The notes beneath the pieces were generated by a model, which made no database searches, had not been told where the DNA came from, and was given only the letters and a program-made list of their open reading frames with translations. This document shows positions 17,788 through 33,881 of a stretch of DNA of 36,480 bases, in pieces. How positions within the stretch are numbered: the stretch's first letter is position 1; every line of letters starts with the position of its first letter. Source of the stretch: a bacterium (GTDB lineage: Bacteria > Latescibacterota > Latescibacteria > Latescibacterales > Latescibacteraceae); the NCBI GenBank assembly GCA_021372535.1, contig JAJFUH010000039.1:1-36480 (forward strand), written 5' to 3'. The translations under genes and the position numbers were made by a program.

Positions 17788-18035
17788 ATGGATTGGGCGA
17801 ATATACACGTTTGCGTTAAAACGCTGAAAAAGTACGTTTCAGAAAAGGGTATAATGACCGAAGACCATGTATGCGGAATAGAAAAGTTTATGGAAGAAGT
17901 CAAAATAAGGTATATTTCTACTATGGGGCAGGTTCGCCTTTAATTGTCAAGGGAGGGCAGACCTCTTCACGGGATAATGGCTCTTTTGGGCATTCCAATT
18001 TATCGGCGACGCAGTGATATTTACTGCTATTGCCT
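17788..18035 (+). pseudogene. Decayed tyrosine integrase (integrase 0)
   Basis: The stretch 17788-17935 translates as a diverged version of the core-binding/catalytic junction of the other integrases here. GIEKFMEEVKIRYIST aligns with GIKSFAEDRKIKYIPS and GIKKFAEDFKIKYIST. After a large internal deletion, 17970-18035 aligns with the C-terminal end (EIMALLGHSNLSTTQRYL) but needs a frameshift and has an in-frame TGA. The catalytic Arg-Lys-His-Arg segment is gone. It lies directly before the first tRNA-Arg half, in the same arrangement as the other two integrases, so it marks the end of an older element now mostly lost. Confidence 0.7.
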
Positions 18036-18115
18036 TGATAAATCCGGTTAAAGCTGCTACAAAACGGGCAGGAAGTATTAAAATACATCCGCAATTCATT
18101 CTGCAGCAACAAAGT

Positions 18116-18155
18116 GCGCCAATAGCTCAGCAGGATAGAGCAACTGCCTTCTCAT
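18116..18155 (+). pseudogene. 5' half of tRNA-Arg(UCU), attachment site 1
   Basis: The sequence from GCGCC at 18116 through the acceptor strand, D-arm (AGCTCAGCAGGATAGAGC) and anticodon stem stops matching a tRNA right after the anticodon loop TTCT (18149-18152). No 3' half follows. Two other copies lie at 23488 and 29895. This is what integration into the anticodon loop of a tRNA gene leaves behind at the end away from the restored gene. Confidence 0.8.
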
Positions 18156-18274
18156 ATCGACAGGCAGATTATCGTAAATTGCTGATAATCAATAATCTGT
18201 CGTAATTACAATAAGATACGTTTGTAGAAAAAATCCGAATAGTATCTCGTTTCTCCGAGTTTTTACTCTTTACC

Positions 18275-18294
18275 TGCCAGAGAACTGCCAGAGA
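18275..18294 (+). repeat. Left arm-type direct repeat pair of element I
   Basis: TGCCAGAGA occurs at 18275 and again at 18286 (11-bp period, one helical turn). The pair starts 126 bp after the TTCT of attachment site 1. Identical pairs occur at the right end of element I (23418, 23429) and the left end of element III (30054, 30065). They are likely integrase arm-binding sites. Confidence 0.7.
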
Positions 18295-18545
18295 AATTCC
18301 GCAATTGACCCGAAATATCGAAGCTGACCCATGACAACACATCTTACAGGTAAACTGCTTGTTAGCCGCAGGTTATACGATATAAAAAATTGTTGTAGGG
18401 TAGGACAATGTATGATGTAATTGCGGTAAAAAACGGGTAGTGTCCGATGGGGATGTAATCCGAGGTAGAGCAGGTAAATTATGGCGAATTCATGTGAGTG
18501 TCACCTCACCAGACCGTGGAAAGCTTACAACAGACATACCTGGAA

Positions 18546-19148: not shown

Positions 19149-19660
19149 TGTATTTCTCCAAATAGGTATGATTTCACACAGGCACATCAGTTGACGGACG
19201 TACAACCATGCCACACGTACATCGGGACTGAGGTGCGTAGATAAAGGAACGGATGGCAGTTGGACTGATTTCGACCGGCCATTGACAGGTGCGCATACCT
19301 GTTCGGTACGCTTCTGACACGAAATGCTTTTACCGGGCCATTGTCGTTGCCAAACGTCATGTATGAAACATGAATGAGATCATGTTTATCTGGTTACACT
19401 GACTCGCCGATTATCCATGGGGTTCTCCATGTAGTATAATATCTCACAAGTAAAACAGATGATTCTTTAGGGAAATCCAATATAAGAAATGCTTGTTTGA
19501 AGAGCAATGAAGATTATATCAGAAAATGAAGACTTGCACGTAACTGACCGCTCTTTGGCCATTCTTTAGCGAGAATTGACCCGTTTCATACTATCTGCTA
19601 TGCTATCGATATGCAATTCCCAACCGATAGTTCCCCCGATACCATCCGGTTTCCGCTCGC
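19149..19660. other. Intergenic stretch upstream of the GNAT gene and element I left arm remainder
   Basis: No gene is seen. Bases 19149-19573 hold the GNAT upstream region. From 19574 the sequence resumes the element left-end sequence that is shared, in diverged form, with 30080-30170 of element III. Confidence 0.5.
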
Positions 19661-19830
19661 AATAATTTCACGCCGATTTTTACGGCGTTATCATAGTGTG
19701 CAATCTATGCCCTTTTACCTCCGGCAAAAAGGACAGCCCACTCTCTCAGAACGCTAATAATAGCCAAATCGCTTTTCATGAGAGACCGGGCTGTCCTTTC
19801 AGGACAAGATTGCACGCAATAAAATAATAA
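19661..19830 (+). ncRNA. Conserved structured leader upstream of Replic_Relax gene, copy 1
   Basis: This 170-bp non-coding stretch is almost identical to 30170-30339, although flanking sequences differ. It folds into a hairpin ACGCCG/CGGCGT (19670-19688), an outer stem GTGCAATCT/AGATTGCAC (19698-19706 with 19807-19815), a 12-bp stem AAAGGACAGCCC/GGGCTGTCCTTT (19728-19739 with 19788-19799) and CTCTC/GAGAG inside it. CCTTTT...AAAAAGG (about 19711-19732) and GTCC...GGAC (19793-19805) are competing pairings. It could be a structured 5' leader (attenuator-like) or a double-strand DNA element such as an origin bound by the downstream protein. The gene start that follows has no Shine-Dalgarno. Confidence 0.6.
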
Positions 19831-20640
19831 ATGCCGCGAAATCCCGACGCCAAACTCTGGCTCTTGAAGGCAATCTACGACCTCAAGTTCGCCACCATCT
19901 ACAATCTCGCCTTCGAGAGCAGGGGAACGACCAAGGACTCCTGCCTTGTCGGCACAGGCCGTCATATCCGCCAGCTCGAAAAGGCCGGGCTGATTCTTCC
20001 GGTCAGGCAATACGGCTACCTGCGCCATGAAAAATACCGCCATACCTTCTGGCAGGTGACGAAAGACGGCGCTCAAGCCCTGGGCTATGAGCGGTATACG
20101 CCTGTCGGCGAGAAATCGGTGCGGAATTTTCCGCACCAGTTCGGGCTGGTCGATGCGCTGTGCGGGCTGTACTACCCGTTTCGGGACGAATACGACATAG
20201 CGATAACTTATCCATCCACTGCTGATTCGCTGGATGGGTACAAGCCGGATGCGGTAGTGAAGTACCGTCACAAGCTCAATGGTAGGGAATACGATTTCAT
20301 CCTGGAATTCGAAAGGACGCGGACACCGAAGGAAATCATGGAGGAGAAGATACGGGTAAGCGAGAAGGTTAAGAATTTTAGGAAATTCGGGCTGTCGAAG
20401 CAAACGAAGATTCTGTATGTGTTCACGACGGAGAATTTTGATGTGACGAAGAGGCCGGTTGAGTATGAGGATTGCAGGCCGGTGATGGAGAGGGTGGAGA
20501 AGCAGTTCGGGCAGCTTTTGAGGTTGGCGGGAAAGTTACCTGGGTATAGATATAGGTTTTTGATTTTATACCAATATAGGAGTTATAAGAACGCAGTATG
20601 GGTGATACCGGGAGGAGAATTGGTGAAAATAATAATTTAA
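19831..20640 (+). CDS. Replic_Relax-like protein (winged helix plus PD...E..K-like domain), copy 1
   Basis: This 269-residue protein begins MPRNPDAK. Residues about 8-80 form a winged helix (LLKAIYDLKFATIYNLAF, then RHIRQLEKAGLILPV and HTFWQVTKDGAQALG). Residues about 150-215 carry GYKPDAVVKY, then FILEFERTRTP and EEKI, the pattern of Replic_Relax (replication-relaxation/relaxosome accessory) proteins, resembling a nuclease fold. It is probably a DNA-binding replication or mobilisation factor of the element. A second copy lies at 30340-31149 and a 3' remnant at 33590-33881. The first 115 residues of the two full copies are nearly identical and the rest much less so. There is no ribosome site before the ATG. 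Confidence 0.65.
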   Translation: MPRNPDAKLWLLKAIYDLKFATIYNLAFESRGTTKDSCLVGTGRHIRQLEKAGLILPVRQYGYLRHEKYRHTFWQVTKDGAQALGYERYTPVGEKSVRNFPHQFGLVDALCGLYYPFRDEYDIAITYPSTADSLDGYKPDAVVKYRHKLNGREYDFILEFERTRTPKEIMEEKIRVSEKVKNFRKFGLSKQTKILYVFTTENFDVTKRPVEYEDCRPVMERVEKQFGQLLRLAGKLPGYRYRFLILYQYRSYKNAVWVIPGGELVKIII

Positions 20641-22290: not shown

Positions 22291-23386
22291 ATGACCAAAA
22301 ACAGATTGGTTGTCGGCGACGCAAGCTGGGCCGACATGATCCCGGACTGGCTCTTAGAAGAAATCAGGCACGAACGGCTCATTTACGGCCTTGCCGGAAT
22401 TTCCAATCCGGATGCACCCAAAGTCGGAGACGCGGAAGTGGCCGCGTATCTCATGACCGCCTCGATGCGCGCGCCCATGCCCGGGGAATACGCGGAAGTT
22501 TATGTCTACCTGACAGCACGGCTGATGAAACGGCAAGGCACGGAATTGCCGGACTTCATGGCCGAGAAAGCCAAAGTCCTTAAAATTGAGAAAGAACTGA
22601 AGAATCCCAGGAAGGATATGAAACTTCTTGCGCTGATGAATGACCGGCTGGATGTTGTTAAAATCAGGAACAGCGACCGTTATTATCAATCCACAATGAG
22701 ATTTTTCAAGCTGTTTATTGCTTTTTCCGGTGATGTTTATGCTTCCGAAATATCAAGGAGCTAGGTGAGCCGGTTTCTGCTTGATTTATCCAGAGTATAT
22801 GAAAAGCACGGCAGGGGAAACAGAAGTGTAAATGTGGCCCTGACCATCCTTAAAGCCCTTTTTAATCATGGCATTAAGATACACGAGCTTGACATTAAAA
22901 AATCCGGTGGTTGGCATAAAATCTTTTGCCGAAGACAGAAAAATTAAGTATATTCCTTCCGATGAAGATATTAAAGCTGTTCTTGCCCTGTGCGACAGGC
23001 AGGAGGCTGCTTTAATTCATTTGGTAATGGAAACCGGCGCCAGAATCGGCGAGGCCCTGAATTTATTGCCGGAGGATATACACGATGGCTTTGTGGTTCT
23101 TTATACCCGCAAAAGCCAGTATGAAAGCTGGATACCGCGCAAGGTTCCTTATGACACCAGCCGGTTAAGAAAATTCAAGCCTTTCAATATACGCTGGAAA
23201 AAGGAGCCGAGATTTCTTGAGAAGTATGTCCATAAACTTGGGCAGAAATCTTGGAACTGGCATTCGCTCCGGCATCGGTACGTTTCAAAATTATTTAAAA
23301 ATGGAGTGCCAATTTTTGAGATAATGATGCTGCTGGGCCACAGCTCTTTAATTACAACACAAAGATATTTGGCCTTGTTGCCATAG
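22291..23386 (+). pseudogene. Tyrosine recombinase/integrase 1, interrupted by a TAG and a +1 frameshift
   Basis: The frame starts at ATG 22291 (AAGGA upstream). A core-binding domain (SDRYYQSTMRFFKLFIAFSGDVYASEIS) is cut by TAG at 22762-22764 and continues in the same frame (VSRFLLDLSRVYEKHGRGNRSVNVALTIL). An extra A in the A6 run at about 22897-22902 then shifts the frame. The rest is intact to 23386 and has the catalytic set: Arg in ETGARIGEAL, Lys in YTRKS, HSLRHR, LGHSSL and Tyr in TTQRYL. The first about 110 residues (MTKNRLVVGDASWADMIP...) are not integrase-like and may be a separate small protein fused by deletion. It would integrate element I into the tRNA-Arg anticodon loop. Confidence 0.8.
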
Positions 23387-23417: not shown

Positions 23418-23437
23418 TGCCAGAGATTTGCCAGAGA
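23418..23437 (+). repeat. Right arm-type direct repeat pair of element I
   Basis: TGCCAGAGA occurs at 23418 and 23429 (11-bp period), 103 bp before the TTCT of attachment site 2 and just after the integrase stop. It matches the left-end pairs of elements I and III exactly in the 9-bp unit. Confidence 0.7.
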
Positions 23438-23487
23438 AAATTGAAAAACGAAAAATATCCTCATAACCTCTTCTGCCGCAATGAGGT

Positions 23488-23527
23488 GCGCCAATAGCTC
23501 AGCAGGATAGAGCAACTGCCTTCTCAT
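23488..23527 (+). pseudogene. 5' half of tRNA-Arg(UCU), attachment site 2
   Basis: This is the same 5' tRNA half as at 18116, identical through the anticodon loop (TTCT at 23521-23524) and a few bases beyond (CATATCG). It is preceded by a conserved integrase-side stretch (TTCTGCCGCAATGAGG) shared with the third copy. It forms the junction between elements I and II. Confidence 0.8.
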
Positions 23528-23776: not shown

Positions 23777-24955
23777 ATGTTTGAACAACAGCTCGATCTC
23801 TTTCAACCGGGTAATAAGTCTTTCGGGAATATATATGACTATCAATTACACGGTCCCATTTCCCTTGATTTCTCACCTGAGCGCATTATTCTCGCCAAAG
23901 GCAGCACCGACACACCCGAAAGGCGGAGTATAGTCCGCCATATTTGTTCTCTATTCCCTGAGGTAACAATAGATGAGTTTCTCGATACACCCCATAATCG
24001 TATTAATATAGATAATCCAAAAAATGCATTCAGACGCCATGTGCAAGGGAAAAAGACGCTGGTACTCGGCGTGATGAAAAGCCCGGTGAGGTTGTCGAAT
24101 GAATCGGGGAATACCTGCCCGAATTACTGGCACTATTCAGTATTCGGTTTTTGCCCGTATGGATGCACCTATTGCTATCTTGCGGGAACGCCGGGAGTTT
24201 GGTATTCGCCGGCGGTAAAAATCTATGTCAATCTCACGGACATTATCGATGAAATCGACAAACAGGCCCGTAGAACCGTCGTTCCCATCTCATTCTATCA
24301 CGGCAAATTACAGGATGGTCTGGCCCTGGAGCCTATCACCGGATACATGCGGTCGCTGATTCCGTTTTTTGCCTGGCATCCCTATGCCCGTAACATCGTC
24401 CTCACAAAATCGGCTGTCGTCGATTCCCTTCTATCGCTCGATCATGAAGGTCACACGATTCTCAGTTGGAGTGTCAATCCGCCGGAAATCGCCTCCCTGT
24501 TTGAGCCAAATACACCACCCGTCGATGCACGCATCCGGGCGATGAAATTATGCGCCGATGCCGGATATCCCATCCGCGTAGTGCTTATGCCGGTCATTCC
24601 CGTCTCCAACTGGAAAAAATTGTACGGTGATTTTCTTGAGCGTCTGCTGATAGAAATTCCTCTAACCCGTTTGACAATCGGGGGGATATGCAGTTATTCT
24701 CACGCTCACCGGTTGATGATACAACGTCTCGGGCACCACAATCCTATTTCTAACCACATGTCAGGACGCACTTCCAAAGGCGATGGACGCCGTCGCTATA
24801 ATCCTGAATTCAGGATCGGCATGTACCGCTTTCTTGCAGGTAAAGCCAAGCATATCAGACCGGATCTACCCATCGGACTTTGTCTTGAAGAGACCGATAT
24901 ATGGCATGAGGTTGATCCGTCATTGAATCCGGGAGTGTGCAACTGTGTTTTATGA
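23777..24955 (+). CDS. Radical SAM protein of the spore photoproduct lyase (SPL) family
   Basis: This 392-residue protein has the radical SAM cluster motif C126-x3-C130-x2-C133 in FGFCPYGCTYCYLAG, which holds a 4Fe-4S cluster and S-adenosylmethionine. The surrounding layout fits SPL-like proteins: the N-terminal RRHVQGKKTLVLG region before the motif, YVNLTDIIDEIDKQ after it, the LTKSA strand, then SWSVNPPEIA, RIRAMKLCADAGYPIRVVLMPVIP and a late RYNPEFR. SPL repairs UV thymine dimers in spores; homologues in non-spore-formers have unproven roles, including DNA repair. It is cargo of element II with its own strong promoter; the ATG has no clear ribosome site. Confidence 0.85.
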   Translation: MFEQQLDLFQPGNKSFGNIYDYQLHGPISLDFSPERIILAKGSTDTPERRSIVRHICSLFPEVTIDEFLDTPHNRINIDNPKNAFRRHVQGKKTLVLGVMKSPVRLSNESGNTCPNYWHYSVFGFCPYGCTYCYLAGTPGVWYSPAVKIYVNLTDIIDEIDKQARRTVVPISFYHGKLQDGLALEPITGYMRSLIPFFAWHPYARNIVLTKSAVVDSLLSLDHEGHTILSWSVNPPEIASLFEPNTPPVDARIRAMKLCADAGYPIRVVLMPVIPVSNWKKLYGDFLERLLIEIPLTRLTIGGICSYSHAHRLMIQRLGHHNPISNHMSGRTSKGDGRRRYNPEFRIGMYRFLAGKAKHIRPDLPIGLCLEETDIWHEVDPSLNPGVCNCVL

Positions 24956-26128: not shown

Positions 26129-28585
26129 TTATTCATGCTGCCCCAACCCAAGTCTCTTCCGCAGCTTCTCCATCAACCCTATCAGTTGTTCCACCTGTGG
26201 TAAGATGCCCGTGTGGTGGGCTCTCAAGTTCTCGTGCACAAGCTTTTGCAAATTGGATAGCCTGTTTGCGAGGTAAACCATTGTTAGTTCACTATTGACC
26301 GTGGCAAAACTTCTTTTGATCGTATCCTCCTTGGTGGCCAACGCCTTCACTCCAGCAGCAAGGAGTTTGCTTCCTTCATATTCATGCGCAAAAGAGGCGA
26401 GTTTCTCTAAGGCATTTAATAAGGGGATTGGTTCAAAATTTGATAGAAGAGCGCCACTGCTAAACAATATGGATTGCGAGCGATCCGAGTTGAGTGTAAG
26501 GAGAACCCGAAAGAAGTTCATCAAGTTACCGTGAAAACCTTTGCTGGAAACAACGTTGTACAGCGAGTCGATGATTTCGTCTCCAACCCGCATGCAAACG
26601 GCGAGTTCGGCTTCAGTGACGTCTTTACCGTAGAGAATATCATGGCAGAATACCTTATAGATTGCCTGACGCGTGTCACGAAGCGTATACTCGGCCTCGG
26701 CTAGATACTCAAGAAGAGTCAGCCCGATCCGGGTTTTTCTGGTCATGCGAGATGGCCACGAGAAGCCGTCCATTGTCCCGATAAGACCGAAATAGAACCG
26801 CAGAGAATTCCGCCACCAGTCATCTAGAAAGATAACATGGGTAAACATCCCGCCCAACCTAACCAACCGCTTTGCGGCAAAGAATTCCTGAAATGAATGA
26901 TGAACGAATTCAAAAACATCTTTCTCCGGTTGTCGAAGGAGCGAACTCCTGAAGTACACCTCATCCAGTATTTCACGAATGGTCTCACTCCCCCCAAAGG
27001 AGTAATGCTTCTGGTCGCGACGCCGTTCTAACACCTTCTCGACGCTGGCTGAGAAGTCAGAGAGATGGAACCACCGACGGTTCTTTACCATATTATCGTA
27101 AGCGAGAACTTCAAGAACATGCGTCTTCAATTCTACGCTGAACTGATTGACAACGCCTCTTATTGTGTCCCACTTACCCAACAACAGATCAAGTATACGG
27201 TCGTAGACGGCACTCCGAGTTGTTGGAAGTTCGCTCGTTCCAAAACGTCGAGCAAGGATGACGTAGATTGTGAGCATAAGTGGAGTCCGGCAGAATGCCC
27301 CTAGGTCTGGGGTGTCAAGGATCTTGCGGGCAACTTCTTCCCTTCGCGCTTCTGAGTCAGGAAACCACTTGGTAATGAACTCGCGTATTTGCGTGTCAGT
27401 GAATGGGCATAGGCGGAAGTACCTGAACGAGGAGCCTAATTGCGGAACACGTGAAGGACGTGAAGTAACGACCACACCTGCAGTATAGCGTTGACTCAGA
27501 TTTGTCAGGTACTTCGCCACGGTCGTATAGTCCATGTCCCTGAGACCGTGCAGATTGATCTCGTCGAATCCATCAAGGAGCAGAAGTAGTGACATTGCTG
27601 GGTGTCGCCGAAGGTATTCGCGTCCGACTTCGTGTTCAACATGTTCATCTATAGCGTTCACGAGACTCTCATATGAAGCAAAAGCAGATGGTGGCAAAGA
27701 GGACATTGGCATGAAGATGGGCATACACATACGGAGGCGTACGGGAAGAGGGTCCGCAACGGCACCGCCTATTGCCAGCACTAGTCTCTGCAACAACGTT
27801 GTCTTGCCGGAACCAACGTCTGCGATCACGACCAGACGGGTGTGATGTTCCATCACGTCAGGAAGTGACTGAGTCGCCGAATCGGGTATCGGGTTGGCAA
27901 AATTGAGCAGTCGGGCGTCTTCGGCATTGGTGGGCACGACATCGCCACCAGTATACACCTGGTCCAAGCGTAGCGTTTGTTCCCCACCAAGCAGAGATAG
28001 GGTTTTAGTTCCAAGAAACCGTTGGCAGATGAGGTACAGGTACCGCGAGTCGGGAGCAGGCATGGTGCGAAAAAGTCCCGGTGCGTACTCGTTCAGCATG
28101 GAAATCAGTTTGGGACCATCCACGAAATTGATCGAATCCTGCGGGGTGTCTCCCATCTCACCACTAATACTCCTGATGCAGGCTTGGGAAATATCGTGCG
28201 GCGTGAAGACAAAAACCTTGGTGATATGCAGTTCCTTACCGTCAAAGGGGTCGCGAAAGGGAGTCTTCATTGCTTGCCGGATCTGGAAGTACAGAGATCC
28301 AATTGACTGTGAACTAGTAACCGACCCGGAAAGACGATTCATCTTGACAACAGCGCAGTAGTGTCTTGTTCCTTCAAGCGGAGAGTGATACTGGAATACG
28401 ATGTCCTTACCAAGTTCGTCCCGACCGTGCAGGTACCGAATGTCCGTAAATCCCATGGCTTGCAGTAGTGGGATCAGCACGAGCTCGCAAAGTTCCCGCT
28501 CAGAGAGGCCTTGCAGAAACTCGGAGTCTGCGGCGAAGTCGCCTTTAACTTCTTGATGGCCAGTGCCGATGTTCTGGTCAGCCAT
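26129..28585 (-). CDS. NACHT-family NTPase with N-terminal nuclease-like domain (bNACHT-like antiphage protein)
   Basis: This 818-residue protein has three parts. Residues about 25-130 resemble a restriction-endonuclease (PD-(D/E)xK) fold: ELCELVLIPLLQAMGF, then ELGKDIVF with Asp61 and YCAVVKMNR with Lys81. Residues about 245-480 are a NACHT NTPase: Walker A ADVGSGKTT (255-263), Walker B LLLLLDGFDE (333-342), VVTSRPSR sensor, and the CRTPLMLTIYVIL helix typical of NACHT modules. The rest is helical and probably senses the trigger. Such proteins (bNACHT, distant relatives of animal NLRs) defend against phage. GGGGGA precedes the ATG. It stands alone as cargo of element II and occupies most of it. 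Confidence 0.85.
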   Translation of the reverse strand: MADQNIGTGHQEVKGDFAADSEFLQGLSERELCELVLIPLLQAMGFTDIRYLHGRDELGKDIVFQYHSPLEGTRHYCAVVKMNRLSGSVTSSQSIGSLYFQIRQAMKTPFRDPFDGKELHITKVFVFTPHDISQACIRSISGEMGDTPQDSINFVDGPKLISMLNEYAPGLFRTMPAPDSRYLYLICQRFLGTKTLSLLGGEQTLRLDQVYTGGDVVPTNAEDARLLNFANPIPDSATQSLPDVMEHHTRLVVIADVGSGKTTLLQRLVLAIGGAVADPLPVRLRMCMPIFMPMSSLPPSAFASYESLVNAIDEHVEHEVGREYLRRHPAMSLLLLLDGFDEINLHGLRDMDYTTVAKYLTNLSQRYTAGVVVTSRPSRVPQLGSSFRYFRLCPFTDTQIREFITKWFPDSEARREEVARKILDTPDLGAFCRTPLMLTIYVILARRFGTSELPTTRSAVYDRILDLLLGKWDTIRGVVNQFSVELKTHVLEVLAYDNMVKNRRWFHLSDFSASVEKVLERRRDQKHYSFGGSETIREILDEVYFRSSLLRQPEKDVFEFVHHSFQEFFAAKRLVRLGGMFTHVIFLDDWWRNSLRFYFGLIGTMDGFSWPSRMTRKTRIGLTLLEYLAEAEYTLRDTRQAIYKVFCHDILYGKDVTEAELAVCMRVGDEIIDSLYNVVSSKGFHGNLMNFFRVLLTLNSDRSQSILFSSGALLSNFEPIPLLNALEKLASFAHEYEGSKLLAAGVKALATKEDTIKRSFATVNSELTMVYLANRLSNLQKLVHENLRAHHTGILPQVEQLIGLMEKLRKRLGLGQHE

Positions 28586-29220: not shown

Positions 29221-29821
29221 GATATGCACAATAATTAATCAAATAGACAAGGCGAATTACCGGGTAAACAACTGCCTGACCTGCCTCAAGGCGATGTTCA
29301 ATTACGACATCATCATCCATGAGCTTCCTGTCCGGAATCCCGTGGTCGGGATAAAAAAATTTGCGGAGGATTTTAAAATTAAGTATATTTCTACCGATGA
29401 GGATATAGAAGCGGTGTTACACCTCTGCGACAGAGACGAGAGCCTTCTGGTGCGATTTGTCATGGAGACCGGGGCGAGGATAAACGAGGCTCTTGCTTTG
29501 GACCGTAAAGACACCTATGAAGGGTATGTCGTTTTTTAAACGAGAAAAAGCAGGAACTCAAACCTGGTGCCCCGCAAGGTACCGTTCGACACCGGCCTGT
29601 TCGGGAGATTCAAACCCTTTCATCAGCGCTGGACAGCCCATCCGAGATTTCTTGAAAAGTATGTCCGGAAGCTGAAACAGAAAAACTGGGGCTGGCACAA
29701 CCTCCGGCACCGGTTTGCGTCCAAGCTGTCGAAAGAGGGAAGACCGCTGTACGAGATAATGGCTCTTCTGGGTCATTCAAATTTATCGACAACGCAACGG
29801 TATTTGCAGCTTTTACAATGA
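29221..29821 (+). pseudogene. Tyrosine recombinase/integrase 2, 5'-truncated and with an in-frame TAA
   Basis: From about 29250 the translation NYRVNNCLTCLKAMFNYDII aligns with integrase 1 (NRSVNVALTILKALFNHGIK). It is followed by RNPVVGIKKFAEDFKIKYIS and ETGARINEAL (catalytic Arg), then TAA at 29537-29539 where integrase 1 has Tyr (VLYTRKS versus VF*TRKS). The same frame continues with NLRHRF, LGHSNL and TTQRYL to 29821. The core-binding domain is missing upstream. The gene would have served element II. Confidence 0.8.
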
Positions 29822-29840: not shown

Positions 29841-29894
29841 AAGCACAAAAAAGAATAAAAAACATCTTCATAACCTTTTCTGCCGCAATGAGGT

Positions 29895-29935
29895 GCGCCA
29901 ATAGCTCAGTCGGATAGAGCAACTGCCTTCTAAGC
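29895..29935 (+). pseudogene. 5' half of tRNA-Arg(UCU), attachment site 3
   Basis: This is the best-preserved half. It matches tRNA-Arg through the anticodon (TCT at 29929-29931) and on through the loop and two 3' stem bases (AAGC). The next bases (CCGCC) no longer pair and there is no T-arm. Its D-loop reads AGTCGGATA, closer to a functional tRNA than AGCAGGATA in the first two copies. It forms the junction between elements II and III. Confidence 0.82.
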
Positions 29936-30053: not shown

Positions 30054-30073
30054 TGCCAGAGAACTGCCAGAGA
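30054..30073 (+). repeat. Left arm-type direct repeat pair of element III
   Basis: TGCCAGAGA occurs at 30054 and 30065, 126 bp after the TTCT of attachment site 3. Sequence, period and distance are the same as for element I. Confidence 0.7.
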
Positions 30074-30169
30074 ATTTCCGCAATTGACCCTCTTTTTCGT
30101 GTCTGCTATACTATCGGTATAGACATCCCGGCCGATACTTTCCGCGATATATTCTGACCTCTTCCTCTA

Positions 30170-30339
30170 ATAATTTCACGCCGATTTTTACGGCGTTATC
30201 ATAGTGTGCAATCTATGTCCTTTTACCTCCGGCAAAAAGGACAGCCCACTCTCTCAGAACGCTAATATTAAAATGACCGCTTTTCATGAGAGACCGGGCT
30301 GTCCTTTCAGGACAAGATTGCACGTAATAAAATAAAAAA
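30170..30339 (+). ncRNA. Conserved structured leader upstream of Replic_Relax gene, copy 2
   Basis: This is a nearly base-for-base copy of 19661-19830: same hairpin ACGCCG/CGGCGT, same GTGCAATCT/AGATTGCAC outer stem, same 12-bp AAAGGACAGCCC/GGGCTGTCCTTT stem and CTCTC/GAGAG. Most differences lie in the loop (about 30263-30278) and just before the ATG, which is the pattern expected if the stems matter. Confidence 0.6.
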
Positions 30340-31149
30340 ATGCCGCAAAATCCCGACGCCAAACAAAGGCTCCTCAAGGCCATCTACGACCTCAAGTTTG
30401 CCACAATCTATAATCTCGCCTTCGAGAGTGGAGGAACGACCAAGGATTCCTGCCTCGTCGGCACAGGCCGTCACATCCACCACCTCGAAAAGGCCGGGCT
30501 GATCCTTCCGGTCAGGCAATACGGCTACCTGCGCCACGAAAAATACCGCCATACCTTCTGGCAGGTGACGAAAGAGGGCGCTCAAGCCCTGGGCTATGAG
30601 CGATACACGCCTGTAGGCGAGAAGTCGGTGCGAAACTTCCCGCACCAGTTCGGGTTGATCGACTCGCTGTGTGGACTGTACTACGCATTCCAGGACGAGT
30701 ATGATATACTGATAGCATATCCTTCTACAGCGAGTTCTTTTGACGGATATAAGCCGGACGCGATTATTCGGTATCGGCACAAGATCACTGAAAGGGAGTT
30801 CGACTTTCTCGTAGAGTTTGAGCGAACAAGGACACCGAAGGCAATATTCAACGAAAAAATCCGGCTGAACGAAAAGATAACGAATTTTCGGAAGTACGGA
30901 TTATCCAAACAGACTAAGTTCCTGTATGTGTTCACGACGGAAAACTTCGATGTAACCACACGGCCCGTGGAGTATCACGGATACCGGCAGATGATAGCAA
31001 GAGTAGAGAAAGAATTCGGCCAGCTTTTGCGAATGGCCAAGAAACTTCCTGAGTACCGCTACCGGTTCGCTCCGCTCCACCAGTTCAAGGAGTTTGAGAA
31101 ACCGGTCTGGTTCAGCCCTACCGGTCATAAAGTGACGATCATCAATTAA
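30340..31149 (+). CDS. Replic_Relax-like protein, copy 2
   Basis: This 269-residue homologue of the gene at 19831-20640 begins MPQNPDAKQRLLKAIYDL. The winged helix (to about residue 115) is nearly identical to copy 1. The second half (GYKPDAIIRYRHKI, FLVEFERTRTP, NEKIRL) is clearly more diverged, and the last 60 residues most of all. No ribosome site lies before the start (an A-run instead). It heads element III, in the same position after the leader as in element I, and is followed after 11 bp by two surface-protein genes. Role as in copy 1: probable DNA-binding replication or mobilisation factor. Confidence 0.65.
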   Translation: MPQNPDAKQRLLKAIYDLKFATIYNLAFESGGTTKDSCLVGTGRHIHHLEKAGLILPVRQYGYLRHEKYRHTFWQVTKEGAQALGYERYTPVGEKSVRNFPHQFGLIDSLCGLYYAFQDEYDILIAYPSTASSFDGYKPDAIIRYRHKITEREFDFLVEFERTRTPKAIFNEKIRLNEKITNFRKYGLSKQTKFLYVFTTENFDVTTRPVEYHGYRQMIARVEKEFGQLLRMAKKLPEYRYRFAPLHQFKEFEKPVWFSPTGHKVTIIN

Positions 31150-31160
31150 CATTAACCAAT

Positions 31161-32372
31161 ATGCAAAAACAAACTTTTCAATCTATCAAATGGCTTCTCC
31201 ACCACGCCATTACCGTATTTTCCTGCGTCGTAATCATTATTGTAGGGACGGCAGCCATAGCGTATTCAAGCACCACTATCGGGGAAAACATAAGCACGAA
31301 TAACCTGACCGCAGCAGGAGACCTTACGGTTGACACGAACACGCTTTTTGTCGATTCCACAAATAACCGGTTAGGAATTGGCACCACCTCGCCCTGGGGC
31401 CTTGTATCAGTCAGTTCCGGTGGCGTTGCCGAACCGGGATTTGTTATTGGCTCCTCCGCGGCTACCCAGTTTTTAGTCAATAATGACGGGAAAGTGGGAA
31501 TCGGGACAGAAAATCCGTCTCAATCTCTTGAGGTGAATGGCGCAGTCAAGGCATTGAATTTCAGAGTTGCCTCCGGCGGAGGAGCATTGTTGAATGACGC
31601 TTCTCCAAATTATTCAAGAATCAGACCACTTTCCACAGGGACGGTGATAGACAGAAATATATCCGATGCAAATGCCGCTCTTATCGTCCAGCAGGTGAAT
31701 CCAGGTTCAACCGGAGATATTCTCCAATTAAAAAATGATTCGGGCACGAAAATGGTGGTAAATCAACAGGGGAAAGTCGGTATCGGCACGACAAATCCAT
31801 CATTGGCGCAATTGCAGGTTGTCGGAAATATTTATACTTCAAATGGAATCAGCTTTTATGAATCGGGAGAAAATTCCGCAAAAAATTCTTTCTATAGAGG
31901 TTCAACTGATTTTCAAATACTCAGAAATTATAGTCGAGTCTATACGATATTGGAATTATTGTCTCCGCCGGGAGTTCTTGGTTCAGCATCATCTTCTGAA
32001 GCTACTATCGCTTTAGTAAGAGGAGAAAACCCAGATCGGGAATTCATTGACATTTACAATAATGGTTATGCTTCGGAAACACAATTCGGCATCAGGATTC
32101 AAAAAAGAGGAACAGGAAGTTATCGTGACTTTGTTTTTGACCAGTATGACGGAACAACGAAGACACCCATACTGGTGTTGAAATCTTCCCGCAATGTCGG
32201 CATTGGGACTTTTTCCCCAACAACGGCATTGGATGTTGCAGGGGTCATTAAAACCAGGCCGACAAGTACGGCAACCTGCGATACCGATGTGGCAGGCGGG
32301 ATTTATTTTGACAGCGATGATAATCATTTTTACGGATGCAACGGTACCGCGTGGGTCCAGTTGGATAATTGA
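31161..32372 (+). CDS. Membrane-anchored tail-fibre-like/stalk repeat protein, Patescibacteria-like
   Basis: This 403-residue protein has one N-terminal transmembrane segment (VFSCVVIIIVGTAAIAY). It is followed by repeats built on (N/G)KVGIGTTNPS and NRLGIGTTSP with LxVxG, as in phage-tail-fibre and trimeric surface stalks. The C-terminal ATCDTDVAGGIYFDSDDNHFYGCNGTAWVQLD is a cysteine-containing tip motif often found in predicted surface proteins of Patescibacteria (CPR); I recognise the style from memory, without a search. There is no Shine-Dalgarno. It is followed after 8 bp by another secreted protein, so the two form an operon. Confidence 0.6.
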   Translation: MQKQTFQSIKWLLHHAITVFSCVVIIIVGTAAIAYSSTTIGENISTNNLTAAGDLTVDTNTLFVDSTNNRLGIGTTSPWGLVSVSSGGVAEPGFVIGSSAATQFLVNNDGKVGIGTENPSQSLEVNGAVKALNFRVASGGGALLNDASPNYSRIRPLSTGTVIDRNISDANAALIVQQVNPGSTGDILQLKNDSGTKMVVNQQGKVGIGTTNPSLAQLQVVGNIYTSNGISFYESGENSAKNSFYRGSTDFQILRNYSRVYTILELLSPPGVLGSASSSEATIALVRGENPDREFIDIYNNGYASETQFGIRIQKRGTGSYRDFVFDQYDGTTKTPILVLKSSRNVGIGTFSPTTALDVAGVIKTRPTSTATCDTDVAGGIYFDSDDNHFYGCNGTAWVQLDN

Positions 32373-32380
32373 TATAACGT

Positions 32381-33589
32381 ATGCGTTATATGACTAAGCA
32401 TAGAACATCGATCATAACCCTCGCCCTGCTGTTGACCTTTTCTCCTGTTTCCGCGACTGCGAGTTTTACCGCCGATTCCAACATCACGGTTTCCGCTGTC
32501 ACCTATGGCACTACTGTCGTTGACATGACAATCCTTGACGGTTCGACTGCCGAAAGTCTTACCTATGATCAAGGAGCTTTCAGAGTGACCAATCCGGATA
32601 ATTTCATGGTATCATGTAATGATGCTTCCGTTCATGGTATCCGCGCCACCCTGTCCGGGAAAACCGCGTCCTGTGTCAGGAATTCCAATCCGGGAACGAC
32701 ATATCTTGCTCTTCGGAATATGACCGGAGAATACACGATTGAGCCAATCACCACAGATATTTCCCACGCTCTTACCTATAATTCCTCCTGCGGCGCGGCA
32801 AGTTGCGAAACCGGCTATATGGTTTCCGGTGCAGGATCAAGTGCTGTTTGTATAACGACTCCCAGCGGAAGCGCACCAGGCTGGATGTTGCAGCAACCGG
32901 CAACCGAAAAGCATACGGTTCCCGCTGATGAAGCGGGAATCCCACCCTTTGATTCCCAAGATATCTCAGACAAAGACGCTCCTGACTCAGGTGTCGAAAA
33001 CGCATGGAAACGAATTCTATCTGACGGTGACATTACAGCCATCGGTGATGTTGACCAACTCATGTGTGAAACCGGCCAGAAAAGAGACTTAGAAATTGAA
33101 GCCAAATATAACCGGACTCTTGTGGAAAGTATTGTCAAAGGAGTGGAAACAAGTAAGGAGACCAGATACGCCATCACCAATTTTGTTACCTACGGCACTC
33201 AAACCACCCGGATTCTCGGAGCCGGGGAAAGAGCCGGAGTGGTCAACAGCTTCAAAACTGCGTTTGGGAAATTACCGACGACTGACACCGACTGGCAAGA
33301 TGTCATAAAGATCGCCAATGGAAGATGGCCCGGACGAACCAATCCGGAAACAGAGAAAAAAGTAGAATCTGCCTTCAGGAAAATTTATCTTCGGAATCCG
33401 GATAGAACCAATCCTCATGACGATGCAGCCCTTGTCGTAATGGCCTATGGATTGAGGCCTGAACAGAGAAATCTTGAGAGCGAGAAAATAGCCATTGGAT
33501 ATTTTATGAGCATTTACGGTTCTGCGCCAAAGTCGGTTTTTGCATGGGATGTGGTGAGAGCGATTGCATATTCAGGGGCGACAAGATAA
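32381..33589 (+). CDS. Secreted protein with C-terminal helical repeat domain, Patescibacteria-like
   Basis: This 402-residue protein has a signal peptide (TSIITLALLLTFSPVSATA) and an N-terminal beta-rich part of about 130 residues with paired cysteines (SCGAASCETGYM). A Pro/Asp-rich linker follows. The C-terminal domain of about 120 residues begins AGERAGVVNSFKTAFGKLP, then TDWQDVIKIANGRWP and later ending DVVRAIAYSGATR. The last domain resembles one in S-layer or cell-surface proteins of Parcubacteria-type genomes (recognition from memory). A second ATG at 32390 is possible; neither has a ribosome site. The stop merges into the remnant of a Replic_Relax gene. Confidence 0.55.
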   Translation: MRYMTKHRTSIITLALLLTFSPVSATASFTADSNITVSAVTYGTTVVDMTILDGSTAESLTYDQGAFRVTNPDNFMVSCNDASVHGIRATLSGKTASCVRNSNPGTTYLALRNMTGEYTIEPITTDISHALTYNSSCGAASCETGYMVSGAGSSAVCITTPSGSAPGWMLQQPATEKHTVPADEAGIPPFDSQDISDKDAPDSGVENAWKRILSDGDITAIGDVDQLMCETGQKRDLEIEAKYNRTLVESIVKGVETSKETRYAITNFVTYGTQTTRILGAGERAGVVNSFKTAFGKLPTTDTDWQDVIKIANGRWPGRTNPETEKKVESAFRKIYLRNPDRTNPHDDAALVVMAYGLRPEQRNLESEKIAIGYFMSIYGSAPKSVFAWDVVRAIAYSGATR

Positions 33590-33881
33590 AAAAACGCTGA
33601 ATGAGAAGATCAAAAATTACCGGAAGTATAGGCTTTCAAAACAGACTAAATTTTTGTATGTGTTTACGATGGAGCATTTTGATGTGACGACGAGGTCGGT
33701 GGAGTATGGTGATTGTCGTGAGGTGTTGGAGAGGGTGGAGAGACAGTTTGGGCAATTAGTGAGGTTGACGGGGAAATTGCCCGGGCATAGGTATCGGTTT
33801 GCGATGTTGCATCGGTTTAGGGCGTTCGAGAGAACGGTGTGGAAGACGACTAAGGGAAACACAGTAATTCTCATTGTCTAA
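33590..33881 (+). pseudogene. 3' third of a third Replic_Relax-like gene
   Basis: The frame from about 33590 encodes LNEKIKNYRKYRLSKQTKFL, then YVFTMEHFDVTTRSVEY and a GQLVRLTGKLPGHRYRF segment ending VILIV. It aligns over its full length with the last about 95 residues of both complete copies. It starts abruptly at the last codon of the preceding gene, with no winged helix. The two surface-protein genes thus lie between the 3' ends of two related genes, which form direct repeats of about 290 bp. The coding strand is G/T-rich, like the 3' end of copy 1. Confidence 0.8.

Follow-up and report, generated by a model that had tools for sequence, protein, structure and literature searches.

A nested inverted repeat ahead of a MOBC relaxase-like gene: a candidate origin-like DNA site in mobile elements of Latescibacterota

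A long, foldable non-coding leader directly in front of a Replic_Relax gene raises the question of whether it works as a structured RNA in the transcript of that gene or as a DNA site of the encoded protein. The window, the whole stretch of 36,480 nucleotides analysed here, carries such a leader twice, at 19661-19830 and 30169-30338. The two copies are 94% identical, as the initial annotation had described with a coordinate one base off for the second, and they are the only ones within the 5.35-Mb genome. The leader is read here, with little better than even confidence, as an oriT- or ori-like DNA site of the adjoining protein that possibly also serves as its operator. The elements that carry it are, by the best reading, most likely integrative mobilizable elements that form a family within Latescibacterota. 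Coordinates are collected in Table 1.

Table 1. Features of the leaders, the adjoining genes and the element ends in the window.
Feature	Position	Strand	Evidence or remark
Tyrosine integrase, catalytic part only	22868..23386	+	PF00589 3.3e-15
Tyrosine integrase remnant, two frames	29294..29821	+	PF00589 3.1e-12 (second part)
tRNA-Arg 5' half, third left end	18114..18152	+	Truncated shortly after -35 box (about 18310)
tRNA-Arg 5' half, left end of next element	23486..23524	+	First gene radical SAM, no leader
tRNA-Arg(TCT) 5' half	29893..29933	+	att core upstream of copy b
Direct repeat TGCCAGAG x2	23418..23438	+	Integrase side of att core
Direct repeat TGCCAGAG x2	30054..30074	+	Between att core and promoter; possible arm sites for the integrase
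Sigma-70-like promoter, copy a	19576..19604	+	TTGACC-17-TATGCT; conserved in 6/6 copies
Promoter, copy b	30084..30112	+	TTGACC-17-TATACT; TG before second hexamer
Small hairpin, copy a	19670..19688	+	Fold; ACGCCG/CGGCGT; 4-bp core GCCG/CGGC in 6/6 copies
Small hairpin, copy b	30178..30196	+	Fold
Nested hairpin, copy a (origin-like)	19696..19815	+	Inverted-repeat search and fold; outer arms 19698-19705/19808-19815; inner 12-bp arms 19728-19739/19788-19799; extension to 19748/19779; variable loop ~30 nt
Nested hairpin, copy b	30204..30323	+	Inner arms 30236-30247/30296-30307; outer arms 30206-30213/30316-30323
Replic_Relax/MOBC-like protein, copy a	19831..20640	+	269 aa; PF13814 24.9 bits, E 2.6e-5
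Replic_Relax/MOBC-like protein, copy b	30340..31149	+	PF13814 19.9 bits; 77% identical to copy a
Truncated third Replic_Relax copy	33564..33881	+	C-terminal ~99 aa, no leader; E 1.3e-35

The hairpin is nested: an 8-bp outer stem (GTGCAATC/GATTGCAC; 9 bp in the window copies) encloses a linker stem of 4-5 bp, a 12-bp inner stem (AAAGGACAGCCC/GGGCTGTCCTTT), an extension of 5-7 bp (CTCTCTCA/TGAGAG) and a variable loop. Among the inverted repeats of the window with spacers of up to 130 nt, the two leader dyads share the top score. The minimum free energy is -62.4 kcal/mol, compared with -31.3 +/- 3.9 for dinucleotide-preserving shuffles (z -7.9, 0/200), and the excess stability is found for RNA and DNA, in the case of RNA on both strands (z about -8). 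In each of the six known leader copies, the fold of the antisense strand is 7-14 kcal/mol more stable than that of the sense strand. Most of what was first reported of this architecture is borne out: the 9-, 12- and 5-bp stems are present in the window copies, the competing hairpins GTCCTTTT..AAAAGGAC and GTCCTTTCAGGAC reuse arms of the nested fold, and the differences fall mostly in unpaired columns. Over six copies, 6/70 paired columns vary against 26/48 unpaired ones (Fisher p 1e-7; p 0.003 without the apical loop). The distance from the -10 box to the hairpin is 90-91 nt in all copies, and the site is probably transcribed within a predicted 5' UTR.

Beyond the window, four further leader copies occur in three related genomes (G003:C147, G002:C618, G002:C801 and CSMAG_1171); G002 and G003, which hold three of them, belong to the same family as the host. 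The leader was not found in the same-genus genome G001 or the other relatives searched, covariance model included; that search, proposed at the outset as a check, recovered only the known copies. Profile and protein scans found no relatives in viral contigs, phages or plasmids, and pattern matches in viral sources (L029/L030 and L041) were rejected as lacking the remainder of the hairpin. All six complete leaders lie directly 5' of the gene for the 269-aa protein; the ATG comes 12-22 nt after the hairpin, and none of the searches, that with the covariance model included, found a leader without the relaxase-like gene.

Comparison between copies separates the hairpin from its surroundings. Pairwise identity is 79-98% in the hairpin region against 42-67% at four-fold degenerate sites of the adjacent gene, and 53-83% in the upstream part; within the relaxase-like genes it is 83-92% at codon positions 1 and 2 and 51-62% at position 3. 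When copies from different genomes are compared, the four-fold sites are at 42-62% and the hairpin at 79-98%. Judged by these figures, the hairpin is a real feature under strong purifying selection. The possibility that its conservation is a mere footprint of recent duplication or gene conversion draws on the window copies, whose genes are 0.88-0.96 identical in 81-nt blocks of the 5' part, a value that drops to 0.47 by the 3' end. Over its first ~300 nt the gene is ~91% identical, so the shared block comprises the leader and the 5' part of the gene; the claim that the neighbouring sequence is unrelated holds downstream but not for this gene start. Local exchange between the window copies is probable, given this unusual similarity. 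Between genomes, however, synonymous sites are close to saturation and the hairpin is nonetheless conserved, which excludes a recent duplication, the circumstance named initially as one that could undo the case, and leaves the footprint explanation with almost no probability.

The protein encoded after the leader is probably a MOBC-type relaxase-like protein with a winged helix and a PD-(D/E)XK nuclease fold, as far as alignment and a structural model indicate. The two full-length window copies score 24.9 and 19.9 bits against PF13814, below its curated cut-off of 25.3 bits; the relaxase of plasmid pAM373 itself scores 27.1. D140, E159 and E161 align with the corresponding residues of the pAM373 relaxase; H102, D140 and E159 are invariant across 20 family members, E161 is shared with pAM373, and the putative catalytic residues are retained in all six leader-linked genes. 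The predicted structure, built on 20 diverse family members, consists of a winged helix-turn-helix followed by alpha-beta-beta-beta-alpha-beta (pTM 0.71, mean pLDDT 68; an earlier model from a shallow alignment had pLDDT 40). Its top PDB matches are restriction endonucleases, together with winged helix-turn-helix proteins, all at E >= 0.008 and none below 0.001. MOBC relaxases have been grouped with PD-(D/E)XK endonucleases, and TraX has an N-terminal winged helix (PMC12857230). The direct profile-profile match to a set containing pAM373 is weak (probability 11%, E 0.003), so membership in MOBC is probable rather than proven. The model also resembles Bacillus phage proteins, and papers on Bacillus phages mention Replic_Relax; some family members therefore need not be relaxases. 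Pieces of the relaxase-like gene of ~30-38 aa occur elsewhere in G000 and G003 (L016, L011 and L014, C-terminal; L015, internal) and suggest past element ends or recombination there.

The closest parallel to the leader comes from the enterococcal plasmids pAD1 and pAM373. The relaxase of pAM373 is Orf8, related to TraX of pAD1 (PMC7117660); PLSDB types this plasmid as MOBC, and its relaxase gene is annotated as replication-relaxation family. Upstream of that gene lie perfect inverted repeats of 18 bp (outer) and 25 bp (inner) around a 27-nt loop, after which come five direct repeats of 12 bp. The nested plan recurs in four more plasmids whose relaxases are related, among them a Carnobacterium plasmid with different repeat sequences. 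Since five direct repeats are described as the binding site of TraX (PMC12857230), the nested-repeat regions of these plasmids are taken to be oriT. The nested plan, as read in this analysis from the five plasmids, is found in the leader as well. The likeness is a resemblance by analogy to relaxase plasmids; the leader is smaller and lies nearer to its gene. Like pAD1 and pAM373 (TraX/Orf8), the Latescibacterota elements have nested inverted repeats upstream of the gene for a Replic_Relax protein that carries a winged helix at its N-terminus and PD-(D/E)XK-type residues; in the plasmids the repeats enclose a loop of ~27 nt. Unlike them, they have shorter stems and a repeat 12-22 nt from the start codon, in the predicted 5' UTR; the leader has no adjoining direct-repeat array or coupling-protein gene and is found in a Latescibacterota chromosome. 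No direct-repeat array is conserved in all six copies; a TGCCAGAG pair occurs in some, but not in G002a or G002b. No comparable nested repeat was found within 1.5 kb of 15 other PF13814 loci from diverse genomes, so the association of hairpin and gene is not a general rule of the family.

Two other systems share parts of this arrangement. In pMV158 (oriT/MobM, MOBV), the relaxase gene likewise follows directly after overlapping, mutually exclusive hairpins; these lie at or beside the relaxase promoters, and the relaxase represses its own gene (PMC5863519). MobM, however, belongs to an unrelated relaxase family, and the pMV158 hairpins are much smaller. Streptococcal Rel_PF13814/MobC integrative and mobilizable elements also join an integrative element to a PF13814 gene (PMC5357655). 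They differ in phylum; here the 5' half of tRNA-Arg serves as att core and the cargo includes GIGT-repeat surface-type proteins.

The elements are stacked in the window as degenerate remnants, as their repeated ends indicate. A tyrosine integrase remnant precedes each tRNA-Arg(TCT) 5' half (18114, 23486, 29893). In G000:C160 a full 314-aa integrase adjoins a complete tRNA-Arg at the int end, and in CSMAG_1171 an apparent native tRNA promoter and 5' half adjoin the left end of the element; together with the tRNA halves of the window, these junctions indicate that the elements use the tRNA 5' half as crossover region. The integrase lies, by sequence, at the opposite end of the element from the leader, and insertion is beside tRNA genes; the G002 leader copies follow a tRNA-Leu and a tRNA-Ala-like 3' half. 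An intact left end has the order tRNA 5' half, direct repeats, promoter, hairpin, relaxase-like gene and variable cargo. Where a left end opens with a radical SAM gene (e.g. at 23777), att is present but the leader is missing, so the leader belongs to the relaxase-like gene and not to att/int.

Several further features of these elements were observed. The third left end (18114-18310) carries a tRNA-Arg 5' half, TGCCAGAG repeats and a -35 box, and a C-terminal integrase remnant lies at about 17960-18040. The radical SAM gene (23777-24955), the first of the neighbouring element, is similar to spore photoproduct lyase, and a remnant of a similar gene lies beside an intact tRNA-Arg in G002:C731 (L082). 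The gene after the relaxase-like gene often encodes a secreted, tail-fibre-like GIGT-repeat protein (window 31161-32372; L017:2-949; L018:2953-4896; L026:4813-6732); these proteins are alike at the N-terminus but differ by exchange of the middle domains (L018 has a polysaccharide deacetylase, L026 a GDSL lipase) and appear to be modular surface-protein cargo. An 818-aa NACHT-domain protein (26129-28585, minus strand) is weakly like antiphage EruA (NCBIfam, 32 bits) and has no PADLOC match. Upstream of the full integrase of G000:C160 (L081), a protein resembling CHC2-type primases by eye is encoded at about 512-1294 on the reverse complement.

Conjugation genes were not seen in the window. No TraG-D_C match to a TraG-like coupling protein was found in G000 or G003, and no PF03135 match to VirB4-like proteins in three genomes, a profile that matched only 1 of 14 controls. 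Since no coupling or VirB4-like genes could be recognised in the host, transfer, if any, would need a helper, or the system has decayed; the helper conjugation system may be one absent from the sequenced host.

Against this background the leader might instead be a cis-regulatory RNA, a ~200-nt 5' UTR whose nested hairpin and alternative pairings control expression of the protein, which perhaps binds its own mRNA. The conserved promoter at a constant 90-91 nt from the hairpin fits such an RNA, as do the stability of the sense-strand fold (z -7.9) and the mutually exclusive pairings. The pattern of substitution fits less well: 30 of the 35 pairs never vary and one covaries, by a C-G to A-T change in the inner extension that is the sole double change and would count for an RNA, so covariation cannot support one. 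At such divergence a structured RNA might be expected to show compensatory changes, which had been proposed as a check. A register-based census of pairing departures found no excess of G.U over A.C (7 against 5 in sense orientation, 6 of the 7 from one invariant pair), the antisense is the more stable strand throughout, and the window has no Rfam match at E <= 1. RNA control is judged unlikely, yet it is the main alternative to the DNA site and keeps an appreciable share of the probability. More doubtful is a functional RNA to which the PD-(D/E)XK protein binds or with which it cooperates; the two would be a new protein-RNA pair on a mobile element. An antisense RNA was rejected: the bottom strand folds better, yet no G.U bias emerged from the census, and a minus-strand promoter was looked for at copy b and not found. 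An upstream reading frame (ATG-AGA-...) runs for 13-14 codons in four copies. The G003 copy has no ATG for it, and in G002b it runs on into the gene; it was judged incidental.

Both arms of the 8-bp and 12-bp stems are letter-for-letter invariant in 6/6 copies, which, with six sequences, is suggestive but not decisive evidence of sequence-specific recognition of the dyad. A dyad used as operator only, for autorepression by the winged helix with no role in nicking or as an origin, would suit a regulator or nuclease kept by decayed elements: the window elements are degenerate with genes still under selection, a promoter is near, and conjugation genes were not found. Nevertheless, a plain operator would not usually be a nested dyad of ~120 bp whose arms are shared and which lies 90 bp downstream of the promoter, and the putative catalytic residues are kept in every copy; this explanation is judged unlikely. 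The nearness of the leader to an att core in mobile elements also recalls an integrase recombination site (att or an attC-like folded site). The att core, however, consists of the tRNA 5' half and direct repeats and lies ~270 bp upstream, the radical SAM left end has att without a leader, and the leader was never found apart from the relaxase-like gene, all of which makes an integrase site highly improbable. Between the RNA and the DNA site first put forward, the MOBC-like gene, the nested plan and the invariant arms give the DNA site the better support.

As an origin-like DNA site, the leader could work as follows. After excision of the element, the protein would bind the repeat, which would probably be extruded into a hairpin or cruciform, and would nick within or beside it, initiating transfer (oriT) or rolling-circle-type replication. 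Binding to the repeat may also restrain the promoter of the protein's gene, which lies ~90 bp upstream. The shorter, overlapping hairpins are a possible switch between a bound and a nickable state, as for pMV158 oriT/MobM (PMC5863519).

No MOBC-type relaxase structure had been solved as of a 2019 paper (PMC6499999), and the DNA-joining chemistry of these enzymes is called unresolved in a 2025 review (PMC12857230). If the reading as an origin-like site is right, the leader would be a concrete candidate origin of transfer or replication, and the protein encoded after it the matching nuclease, in mobile elements of a phylum, Latescibacterota, that is mostly uncultured. Together they would also offer a testable system for MOBC-type relaxases, compact at ~170 bp.
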